Shown here one piece after another: positions 26,704-29,575 of a stretch of DNA of 64,000 nucleotides (position 1 is the first letter of the stretch; the number at the start of each line of letters is the position of its first letter). Origin of the DNA: Streptomyces sp. Q6 (GTDB lineage Bacteria; Actinomycetota; Actinomycetes; Streptomycetales; Streptomycetaceae); contig NZ_CP146022.1 in the NCBI RefSeq assembly GCF_036967205.1, positions 5,642,001 to 5,706,000 on the forward strand, written 5' to 3'. Both the position numbers and the translations under genes were made by a program. The notes below the pieces were generated by a model that searched no databases, was not told where the DNA came from, and was given only the letters and a program-made list of their open reading frames with translations.

Positions 26704-26949
26704 GGTTCGTCTCCTCTTGTGGGTCCTGCTGCGGTGTCCGCGCTGTTGTTTCGTCCGTTTCCCGATCAACGCGCGCCGGGAGCCGGTGGTTCCGAAAACC
26801 GGCTTCGGGACGCCGAACCGGGTTCGAAAAACGCCGCCCATGCCCCGTCCGCCACTGATCCATTCCCGCTCATTTGTGTAATGGCGCGACCACGTTCCGT
26901 GCTGGAAAGGTGGGCGGCGCAGGCCAGTTCATGATCGGGAGGGCAATTC

Positions 26950-28356
26950 ATGTCGGTAGGCGAAGAGGTCCGCACGGAGCAGCCGGGGTCGCAGAAGAGC
27001 CTCGGCACATCCGCCGCGCGGAATCTGGCCACCACCACCAAATCCGCGCCGCAGATGCAGGAGATCAGCTCCCGCTGGCTGTTGCGGACGCTGCCCTGGG
27101 TGGATGTGCAGGGCGGCACGTACCGGGTGAACCGGCGACTCAGCTACTCGGTCGGGGACGGCCGCATCACGTTCGTGAAGACGGGTGACCAGGTCCGCGT
27201 CATCCCCGCCGAGCTGGGGGAGCTGCCGGCGCTGCGCGACTTCGAGGACCAGGACGTCCTGGGCGAGCTGGCCCAGCGCTGTACGCAGCGCGAGTTCGCG
27301 GCGGGCGAGGTCCTGGCCTCGTTCGGCAGCCAGGCGGACGAGGTGTACCTCCTCGCGCACGGCCGGGTGGAGCAGGTCGGCGCGGGACCGTACGGGGACG
27401 ACGCGGTGCTCGGCGTCCTCGCCGACGGCGCGTACTTCGGCGAGCAGGCCCTGCTCGACCCGGAGAGCATCTGGGAGTACACGGCTCGCGCGGTCACCGC
27501 GTGCACGGTGCTCACGCTGCCGCGCCGCGACCTGGAGCAGATCGCCGAGCGCTCCGAGGCGCTGCGCGACCACCTCCACCGGCTGCGGTCGGTTCCGGAG
27601 CAGCGGGCCAACAAGTACGGCGAGCGGGAGATCGACCTCTCCGCCGGCCACGTCGGGGAAGCGGTGCTGCCGGGCACGTTCGTCGACTACGAGTCGGCGC
27701 CGCGCGAGTACGAACTGAGCGTCGCGCAGACCGTCCTGCGCATCCATACGCGCGTGGCCGACCTCTACAACCAGCCCATGAACCAGACGGAGCACCAGCT
27801 CCGGCTGACCGTCGAGGCGTTGAAGGAGCGCCAGGAGCACGAGCTGATCAACAACCGGGAGTTCGGCCTCCTCAACAACTGCGAGTACGACCAGCGGTTG
27901 CAGCCGCACGACGGTGCGCCCAGCCCGGACGACATGGACGAGCTGCTCAGCCGCCGGCGTGGTTCCAAGCTGTTCCTGGCGCACCCGAAGGCGATCGCCG
28001 CGTTCGGCCGCGAGTGCAACAAGCGGGGCCTCGTGCCCGAGAGCATCGACGTGGGCGGGAACCGGATCCCGACCTGGCGCGGTGTGCCGATCTACCCGTG
28101 CGCCAAGATCCCGATCTCGGACGCGCGGACCACGTCCATCATCTGCATGCGTACCGGACAGGAGGAACAGGGCGTCATCGGCCTGCGGCAGTCCGGCATC
28201 CCGGACGAGATCGAGCCGAGCCTGTCCGTGCGGTTCATGGGCATCAGCGAGCAGGCGATCATCTCGTACCTGGTGACCACCTACTACTCGGCGGCGGTCC
28301 TGGTGCCCGACGCGCTCGGGGTCCTGGAGAACGTGGAGGTGGGCCGGTGGCGGTGA
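26950..28356 (+). CDS. Family 2B encapsulin shell protein (EshA-type) with cyclic-nucleotide-binding domain
   Basis: 468 residues. The N-terminal arm has the EshA-type signature [20 protein letters not shown] (residues 17-36), then [24 protein letters not shown]/cNMP-binding domain (about 95-210: [40 protein letters not shown]) is inserted into the HK97-like shell protein, and the shell domain resumes to the end ([60 protein letters not shown]). Family 2B shells assemble into nanocompartments that package terpenoid enzymes; EshA was known earlier as a growth and antibiotic-related protein in S. griseus. The ATG follows GGGAGGG by 7 nt. A polyprenyl synthase gene follows. The phosphate-binding cassette is atypical. 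Confidence 0.92.
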
Positions 28357-28472
28357 CACCCACCCCCCGGCGGTCCGTGTCCCCGCCCGCCGGGGCGGGT
28401 ACATCCAGGGGGTACGCGCCCAGCAGCAGCGGAACCGCCACCGTCCGCACCCTCTCCGGGGTGAGTCCATGA
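28347..28472 (+). CDS. Small Pro/Ser/Thr/Gly-rich ORF coupling encapsulin and polyprenyl synthase
   Basis: A 41-codon frame begins with GTG 28347, 7 nt after GGAGG, inside the last codons of the shell gene (a second GTG at 28353 overlaps its TGA), and ends with a TGA that overlaps the ATG of the polyprenyl synthase (ATGA). The product is disordered and rich in Pro, Ser, Thr, Gly and Arg ([16 protein letters not shown]...), with no hydrophobic segment. It may be a real small protein, a translational bridge, or a cargo-loading extension separated from the synthase by an indel. Similarity to disordered encapsulin cargo-loading regions is only compositional. Confidence 0.4.
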
Positions 28473-29575
28473 CGCAGACGACGGAGACGCGAGTGGTGGC
28501 AGAGCATGTCGAGGCGGTGGCGGCGAGCGCGGGCCGCGACGGGCACGAGGCGCACGAGGCGGCGGTGATCCTCGCGCAGGCCAGGAGCACCGTCGATCCC
28601 GAACTGCGCACAGCCGTCGAGGCCCTGCCGGGGTCCATACGCCGCGTTGCCCTGTACCACTTCGGCTGGGAGCACGCGGACGGTACGCCCGCGGCGGGGA
28701 ACGCGGGGAAGGCCGTACGGCCCGCCCTCGTCCTGGCCGCGGCGCGGGCCCTGGGCGGCCGGCCCGAGCAGGCGGTACGGGCGGCGGCAGCGGTGGAGTT
28801 GACGCACAACTTCACCTTGCTGCACGACGACGTGATGGACCGGGACGCCACCCGCAGGCACCGGGCGACCGCGTGGACGGTGTTCGGGGACGCCGACGCG
28901 ATCCTGGCGGGTGACGCGCTCCAGGCCCAGGCGCAGCGGCTGCTCGCCGAGGACCGGCACCCGGCGGCGGCCTCGGCGGCGGCCCGGCTCGCGGCCTGTG
29001 TCGTCGAGTTGTGCGCGGGCCAGTCCACGGACGTCGCCCTGGAGCGGCGTGATCCGGCGGAGGTGACCCTGGAGGAGACCCTCGCCATGGCGGAGGCCAA
29101 GACGGGGGCGCTGCTCGGCTGCGCGTGTGCGCTCGGCGGGCTGTACGCGGGGGCGGCGCCGGAGGAGGTCGAGGCGCTGGACGCGTTCGGGCGGGCGGCG
29201 GGCCTGGCGTTCCAGCTGATCGACGACGTGATCGGGATCTGGGGCGACCCGGCCCGCACCGGCAAGCCGGCCGGGGCCGACCTGGCCGTACGCAAGAAGT
29301 CCCTGCCGGTCGTCGCGGGTCTCGCCTCGGGCGGCCCGTACGCGGCCGACCTGGCCGCGCTGTACGGGCCACCGGGTCCCCGTAAGGAGAGCGAGGCGGA
29401 ACTGGAGGCCATCGCGCTCGCGGTCGAGCGGGCCGGTGGGCGCGACTGGGCGCAGACGGAGGCCGCGGACCAGATGGCTCGCGCGGTGCACCAGTTGTCG
29501 CGGGCGGTCCCGGATCCGGAGGCGGCGGGCGGACTGCTGTCGCTGGCGGAGTTCGTCACGCGACGCGGTTACTGA
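28469..29575 (+). CDS. Polyprenyl synthetase, predicted family 2 encapsulin cargo
   Basis: 368 residues of the trans-isoprenyl diphosphate synthase family, which condenses IPP onto an allylic diphosphate. The first aspartate-rich motif is DDVMD at 120-124 within THNFTLLHDDVMDRDATRRH; the second is the variant IDDVIGIWGD at about 251-260 followed by GADLAVRKKSLPVV. KAVRPALVLAAARALGG (about 81-97) binds diphosphate. Placement 112 bp after an EshA-type shell gene is the known family 2B layout with a polyprenyl transferase cargo. The N-terminal 38 residues are polar and could carry a loading signal. Product chain length is not predictable. Confidence 0.9.
   Translation: MTQTTETRVVAEHVEAVAASAGRDGHEAHEAAVILAQARSTVDPELRTAVEALPGSIRRVALYHFGWEHADGTPAAGNAGKAVRPALVLAAARALGGRPEQAVRAAAAVELTHNFTLLHDDVMDRDATRRHRATAWTVFGDADAILAGDALQAQAQRLLAEDRHPAAASAAARLAACVVELCAGQSTDVALERRDPAEVTLEETLAMAEAKTGALLGCACALGGLYAGAAPEEVEALDAFGRAAGLAFQLIDDVIGIWGDPARTGKPAGADLAVRKKSLPVVAGLASGGPYAADLAALYGPPGPRKESEAELEAIALAVERAGGRDWAQTEAADQMARAVHQLSRAVPDPEAAGGLLSLAEFVTRRGY

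Follow-up and report, generated by a model that had tools for sequence, protein, structure and literature searches.

Genes at the locus

The 64,000-nucleotide (nt) stretch of the Streptomyces sp. Q6 genome analysed here (contig NZ_CP146022.1, positions 5,642,001 to 5,706,000; hereafter the window) carries a gene for a family 2B encapsulin, a virus-derived shell protein, followed by a polyprenyl synthase gene, and both open reading frames (ORFs) are intact at the coordinates given in Table 1. The best explanation of the locus as a whole, which we hold with moderate confidence, is a polyprenyl-type 2B operon, probably of the EshB kind, whose shell encloses the synthase encoded next to it. Systems of this type are already catalogued and are common in Streptomyces, and the pair described here is a well-supported member; the analysis corrects its name, narrows the question of the ligand and adds three new observations of modest weight.

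The shell protein matches the full-length NCBIfam equivalog model NF041163 (encap_f2b, 'family 2B encapsulin shell') with 777.1 bits against a cut-off of 400, and the match spans residues 17–466 and all 450 model positions. Pfam places a SrpI-like HK97 domain at residues 216–466 (PF19307, 455.4 bits, cut-off 22.8) and a cyclic nucleotide monophosphate (cNMP)-binding domain at residues 114–201 (PF00027, 68.7 bits, cut-off 27.5). An earlier note on this DNA had proposed a 2B shell with an inserted cNMP-type fold and an HK97-like remainder and had called for a search with family 2B profiles, and these three matches bear it out. The 15-residue signature named there occupies residues 17–31 of the N-arm, which has the highest mean column conservation (0.954) of six regions measured in 81 shells. 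The best solved-chain match is 9bhu (688 bits), with 9bje and 9bix also among the best; 9bhu is the S. griseus family 2B encapsulin, and 9bje and 9bix are S. lydicus Enc1 and Enc2 (PMC12407261). By analogy with these solved 2B shell proteins, the window protein is likely to self-assemble into an icosahedral particle. Its sole viral profile match, to a major head protein, is weak (29.3 bits) and is expected because the shell has the HK97 fold. In the host genome (8.95 Mb, two contigs) this is the single 2B shell above the NF041163 cut-off, and two weaker matches (45 and 20 bits) are confined to the model's cNMP part.

The second protein contains a polyprenyl synthetase domain (PF00348, 187.7 bits, cut-off 27) and also exceeds, by a narrow margin, the cut-off of NF041169, 'family 2 encapsulin cargo protein polyprenyl transferase' (478.7 bits, cut-off 450). 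For both proteins the profile scores exclude chance. The first Asp motif, DDVMD (residues 120–124), and the second, DDVIGIWGD (residues 252–260), are complete, which confirms the earlier reading of the next enzyme gene as a polyprenyl synthase with an entire DDVMD. Both motifs are near invariant across 74 synthases (the window and 73 of the 76 relatives with a match; L004, L009 and L018 were dropped), and the best solved-chain match is 3nf2. An aromatic residue five positions before the first Asp motif favours C20 products. Because the window synthase has such a residue, F115, which is 98% conserved in the same set, our guess is that it would make geranylgeranyl diphosphate.

Table 1. Features of the encapsulin locus, in window positions
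Feature	Position	Strand	Basis
Conserved block GATCCATTCCCGCTC-TTCG-GTAAT-GC, candidate promoter or operator of unrecognised type	26857..26885	+	81-sequence alignment
Family 2B encapsulin shell gene, 468 amino acids, probably EshB type	26950..28356	+	NF041163; grouping with synthase-linked shells
N-arm, residues 17–66, carrying the 15-residue shell signature	26998..27147	+	column conservation
Inserted cNMP-binding-type domain, residues 114–201, without canonical phosphate-binding arginine	27289..27552	+	PF00027; alignment to cyclic GMP kinase domain; residue counts
HK97-fold SrpI-like shell domain, residues 216–466	27595..28347	+	PF19307
112-nt spacer, shell stop to synthase start	28357..28468	+	sequence
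Stem-loop in spacer, 11/12 positions paired, G-U allowed	28377..28404	+	stem scans, covariation
Polyprenyl diphosphate synthase (product probably geranylgeranyl or farnesyl diphosphate), 368 amino acids, putative cargo	28469..29575	+	NF041169; Asp-rich motifs

The conserved block upstream of the shell gene may serve as a promoter or operator, judging from its alignment. The strand complementary to the 5' half of the shell gene (26984–27488, minus) carries a full-length match to Rfam family RF02735 (Sernc350, a Saccharopolyspora antisense small RNA; 127.8 bits, gathering threshold 50). That family probably derives from an antisense transcript of a 2B shell gene, and the match is uninformative on expression at the window locus.

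Linkage of shell and synthase in Streptomyces

Operons of the 2B polyprenyl transferase (PT) type numbered 900 in a 2021 count, mostly in Actinobacteria, and their synthases have no conserved targeting motif according to PMC8346489. They share with the window a 2B shell with an internal cNMP-type domain and an adjacent polyprenyl synthase. This count and the existence of dedicated NCBIfam models agree with the earlier statement that such loci have been catalogued. Likewise, the literature matches listed, which leave most subscription papers uncovered, include no experiments on a polyprenyl-type 2B system, as expected if few members have been studied. The description of the system as little-described therefore holds for its function and not for its existence, since it is catalogued, has its own models and occurs in 112 of 150 Streptomyces genomes.

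These 150 genomes were surveyed with the NF041163 and NF041169 cut-offs. A set of 80 relatives was also used, 78 of them labelled Streptomyces and two labelled Actinobacteria bacterium. A 2B shell lies above the cut-off in 147 genomes and a cargo synthase in 114. Among the matches listed, shells of the window clade are at least 72% identical to the window shell and others at most 69%; 118 genomes hold 121 clade shells, and 111 of these are directly followed by a synthase gene on the same strand. Per genome, again among the matches listed, 112 have both genes, six the shell only, two the synthase only and 30 neither. The six shell-only genomes comprise one with a broken synthase (G082), two with a geosmin-type cyclase (G010, G051) and three in which the locus lacks an intact synthase (G006, G101, G141), and the two synthase-only genomes are one whose shell is cut by a contig end (G130) and one without a shell at the locus (G076).

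Shells without the synthase and with other partners

The shell ORF is intact at five loci that lack a complete synthase, which correspond to four changes on a tree of 60 shells. The synthase gene has been lost from L063 and L098 (genome G101), as its two ends remain there, and was probably also lost from L024, L101 (G006) and L114 (G141), where it is absent from the same position. In addition, no synthase match was found in the 10 kb downstream of the shell in L033, a metagenome bin. The broken synthases of L018 and L113 were not counted as losses; they are probably assembly errors because neighbouring genes are broken too.

Partners differ within the window clade. In L112 (G051) a geosmin-type cyclase lies directly downstream (1175.8 bits, cut-off 1200), and the neighbour of L111 (G010) is a shorter geosmin-type frame read from the other strand (765 bits, model positions 25–509 of 735); the exact place of these two shells in the tree is unsure because of their long branches. 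Downstream of L115 and L116 is a 2-methylisoborneol (2-MIB)-type cyclase, and GPAGLGTSAAR is seen in L115. Encapsulins have also been found in all geosmin clusters of the myxobacteria studied in PMC12224551.

A luminal loop has been named as a candidate for cargo loading (PMC12407261), and its position 371, Asn in the window shell, was considered as a mark of the cargo. In the first set, position 371 is Asn in 69 of 77 synthase-linked shells and in the four synthase-less shells other than L101, and His in the two geosmin-linked shells, in the 2-MIB-type-linked group of three (one with an unknown partner) and in L101. The mark was rejected on the second set of synthase-linked shells, in which 12 of 38 have Asn and 18 of 38 His.

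Two further arrangements were seen among 2B shells. On a Kitasatospora plasmid (NZ_CP108290.1, 853 kb) a 2B shell is annotated beside a SufS-type cysteine desulfurase (L136, 5992–8857), so that a 2B shell is paired here with a kind of cargo known mainly from family 2A. L097 and L099 (G068 and G101) are 2B shells without a recognisable cargo gene directly downstream, and they form their own branch near L105.

A recurrent hairpin in the spacer

The spacer is similar between relatives at the DNA level and not as a peptide, and an ATG at +112 recurs in many of them. A small coupled ORF between the shell stop (GTGA) and the synthase start, 39 codons long in the window, was rejected as a gene because frames shift between relatives and the similarity resides in the DNA.

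The 80 nt after the shell stop were scanned for 12-base-pair stems in which 11 or more positions pair, counting G-U. Such stems occur in 32 of the 79 spacers of the first set, against 7.2 in shuffled sequences, and in 17 of 38 in the second (against 2.2), which consists of synthase-linked loci with more divergent shells and possibly overlaps with the first. All 12 positions pair in 9/79 and 10/38 spacers (shuffles, 0.4 and 0.0), and with Watson-Crick pairs only, stems of at least 11 pairs are found in 17/79 and 11/38 (shuffles, 0.2 and 0.3). The second-set counts are not independent events because its members are related. Control regions gave 11-pair stems in 10/79 and 1/37 cases upstream of the shell and in 0/79 and 3/38 inside the coding region, and 12-pair stems in none; among shells of the 2-MIB-type set, stems occur in two of nine.

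Covariation was measured on the window and 59 of the 79 relatives, the other 20 being omitted where the region was unaligned. The 12-pair stem has standard pairs in 81.9% of cells and a covariation score of 0.195, compared with 0.139 in shuffles and 0.045–0.144 when the stem is slid along the alignment. Two of five measures are not clearly above shuffles (double-change pairs, 124/500; pair types, 46/500), double changes are more numerous in one slid version of the stem (28 vs 26), and folding energies lend weak support (mean z −1.24, with 32 of 80 below −1.5). More divergent members carry stems of unrelated sequence at the same place, and this recurrence supports the stem as a structure.

Is the synthase packaged?

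Our favoured explanation, a shell that encloses its neighbouring synthase, may work as follows. The shell protein would assemble by itself into a small icosahedral compartment (T=1, about 28 nm) with the cNMP-like domains on the outside, and the downstream synthase would be made from the same transcript and then enclosed, so that allylic diphosphates would be extended inside the shell. The stem-loop probably keeps synthase expression below that of the shell, which would fit the need for 60 shell subunits for a few cargo molecules. The synthase would be the usual cargo rather than an obligate one: retention of the shell in relatives that lack the enzyme, and the pairing of clade members with geosmin-type and 2-MIB-type cyclases, give the shell the look of a general terpenoid compartment. 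In favour of this explanation are the scores of both genes above their curated cut-offs, their co-occurrence and adjacency in the genomes surveyed, the constant upstream flank, the 2B identity of the best solved-chain matches, the RRR at diagnostic motif 1, the single 2B shell of the genome, the excess of hairpins over shuffles and the shells retained at loci lacking the synthase.

Several observations weigh against this explanation. No shared loading motif was seen in the N-terminal stretch of the 74 synthases, in which residues 1–28 are poorly conserved (mean 0.34, compared with 0.83–0.86 for the remainder), and LGT[SA] occurs in none of the 74. The window synthase has 30 residues ahead of the conserved AAVIL stretch, and it is thereby shorter than the disordered N-terminal domain of 50–100 residues that PMC8346489 gives as a usual feature, and not a strict criterion, of PT cargo; among the 74 sequences, with starts chosen automatically, the stretch ranges from 7 to 270 residues. 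One relative, L118 (G076), has kept the synthase and lost the shell, which suggests that the enzyme may act unpackaged. Common descent, no less than function, can produce co-occurrence. Finally, the hairpin is common and not universal, as under half of the spacers pass the scan, it lacks a T-run, and it may be a terminator or a stabiliser.

The lack of a shared loading motif, the five intact shells without a synthase and the shell-less synthase of L118 would also be accounted for if the two genes were co-transcribed neighbours only, with the shell holding another cargo or working empty as an external ligand-binding particle. Against this stand the direct succession of shell and synthase in 111 of the 121 clade members, the match of the synthase to a model made for encapsulin cargo, and the occurrence of other 2B shells followed by cyclases that match cargo models. 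An unpackaged synthase is therefore unlikely in our judgement, if worth serious attention, and we continue to favour its enclosure by the shell.

The inserted domain and its possible ligand

The match of the inserted domain to PF00027 lies above the cut-off, and the name of that family suggests an enzyme compartment regulated by cyclic nucleotides. The cassette arginine of cyclic GMP kinase, however, aligns in HMMER to S173 of the window shell, and position 173 of 81 close shells holds Ala in 65, Thr in eight, Ser in six, Gly in one and a gap in one. One of the 81 rows is gapped at positions 171–176; the remaining 80 have no arginine in this stretch, and position 175 is Trp in 80 of the 81. 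Among 40 further shells Arg is found at 173 in none and singly at 171, 174 or 176, and 34 other 2B shells have it at 173 in two, at 174 in five, at 171 in one and at 176 in one, with W175 in all 34. A hand alignment that had put the cassette arginine at W175 was dropped in favour of the HMMER placement; the close relatives have no arginine there either way.

The 2B domain is furthermore said in PMC12407261 to bind no cyclic nucleotide. Together with the absent cassette arginine, this makes regulation by cyclic nucleotides scarcely credible, and the ligand of the window domain, if it has one, is probably of another kind; alternatively, the domain could be structural or serve in docking. Of the earlier note, the inserted cNMP-type fold stands, and the idea of an effector ligand is weakened as far as cyclic nucleotides are meant.

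Could the shell also take a geosmin synthase?

Besides its single 2B shell, the host genome encodes a geosmin-type synthase whose interdomain region contains GGPTGLGTSG (C1:6647606 region), close to GPTGLGTSAAR, the putative targeting motif of terpene cyclases described in PMC8346489. This motif, together with the geosmin-type cyclase genes that adjoin the clade members L112 and L111, would fit a shared compartment, in which the shell also takes the geosmin synthase encoded elsewhere and prenyl diphosphate passes between the enzymes. Several points stand against it. The host geosmin synthase lies 0.98 Mb from the pair and scores 1145 bits against a cargo model cut-off of 1200, a cut-off that is exceeded in only nine of the 150 genomes. 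Co-occurrence with the shell is useless as evidence because a geosmin-type synthase is near universal in these genomes, and G102, a fragmented assembly with no shell above the cut-off, keeps a similar motif. The count of the exact GPTGLGTS pattern is also uninformative, with 49 matches in 45 of the 150 genomes compared with 56 for the backward control, although 34 of the 49 matches fall in geosmin-type genes. In addition, the residue before the first Asp motif suggests a C20 product for the linked synthase, whereas a geosmin synthase needs C15. A compartment shared with the geosmin synthase is accordingly improbable.

The shell N-arm itself contains SLGTSAAR (26998–27042), which resembles GPTGLGTSAAR, and the host geosmin-type synthase has PTGLGTSG. 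Elsewhere in the host genome LGTSAAR proved uninformative: three matches were found, one being the shell and two lying in unrelated frames and chance-like, versus six for the backward-pattern control. From the resemblance, cargo might dock by mimicking the N-arm. A broader proposal would make the EshB shell a multi-cargo terpenoid compartment that takes the linked synthase and, in trans, the geosmin synthase (in relatives, the 2-MIB synthase) through a GPTGLGTS-type motif, coupling prenyl supply to cyclisation, with the cyclase motif perhaps docking by mimicry of SLGTSAAR and the hairpin setting the shell-to-synthase ratio. We consider this proposal speculative and quite improbable, and enclosure of the linked synthase remains our preferred explanation.

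Probably EshB rather than EshA

The earlier note had called the shell EshA-type, a name that is not sustained. EshA (SCO7699; S. griseus EshA) is linked to 2-MIB genes, and eshA belongs to an operon with them (PMC6428758), whereas the window shell is linked to a polyprenyl synthase and has no 2-MIB operon (synthase and methyltransferase) beside it. In the 60-shell tree, which does not include a named EshA sequence, two clades each receive 100/100 support; the window shell groups with synthase-linked shells, apart from eight shells of a clade with 2-MIB-type cyclases (L091–L096, L100 and L110) to which it is 65–68% identical. The genes downstream of four of the eight (L091, L092, L096 and L110) match the single-domain terpene cyclase cargo model and are read as 2-MIB type. 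The exception to the split is the pair L115/L116, which is linked to 2-MIB-type cyclases and falls in the window's clade.

A gene read as a Ni superoxide dismutase (Ni-SOD) lies near the window pair, and sodN of Streptomyces coelicolor is SCO5254, so that the S. coelicolor counterpart of the pair is probably SCO5249–SCO5250. On the strength of description and synteny with sodN, the window shell would then be EshB. SCO5249 is described as eshB, a putative cyclic-nucleotide-binding paralogue of eshA, and in a whiH mutant its transcript was higher by quantitative reverse-transcription PCR and little changed by S1 mapping (PMC3878966). It is also listed in a transcript-abundance table for developmental mycelia (PMC3610822), and it may be subject to repression by AtrA (PMC13170358). 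SCO5250 is counted among the genes of the pathway to isoprenoid precursors and was up 4.4-fold on glucose (PMC7494193).

The S. lydicus proteins Sl-Enc1 and Sl-Enc2 (PMC12407261) are homologous to the window shell over nearly its full length. They form a two-component 2B shell, marked by two shell genes within 10 kb, whereas the window genome has one shell gene. The diagnostic motif 1 of the window shell is RRR, as in Sl-Enc2, which is the S. lydicus subunit able to assemble alone (PMC12407261).

Genomic neighbourhood

The upstream flank carries Na/H exchanger and PALP genes in all 63 loci with a full flank, which also include an amidase (50/63), an acetyltransferase (40/63) and Ni-SOD (40/63). 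A Pfam scan of ten neighbours of the pair revealed no further terpenoid gene; two of the ten matched no Pfam family. Terpene cyclase domains of the host genome lie at C1:6646817–6648526 (two domains, geosmin type), C1:5635473 and C1:5718337, and the C1:5635473 cyclase is close to epi-isozizaene synthase (643 bits, cut-off 675). The cyclase gene at C1:5635473 lies 6.5 kb ahead of the window and the one at C1:5718337 lies 12 kb beyond it.

Implications

Polyprenyl-type 2B shells are common in Streptomyces, and no product, ligand or reason for packaging has been reported for them in the literature searched. Two features of the window clade, the spacer hairpin and the synthase-less shells, form no part of the PT-type description as available in PMC8346489, in which the N-terminal stretch of the synthase is also longer (50–100 residues, compared with about 30 in the window). 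They are the less expected results of this analysis: the shell has been retained after loss of the synthase in some relatives, and a hairpin often stands between the two genes. The shell-only genomes and the clade members paired with geosmin-type cyclases offer natural tests of shell function without the usual cargo, and the spacer hairpin would provide a simple handle on the shell-to-cargo ratio.

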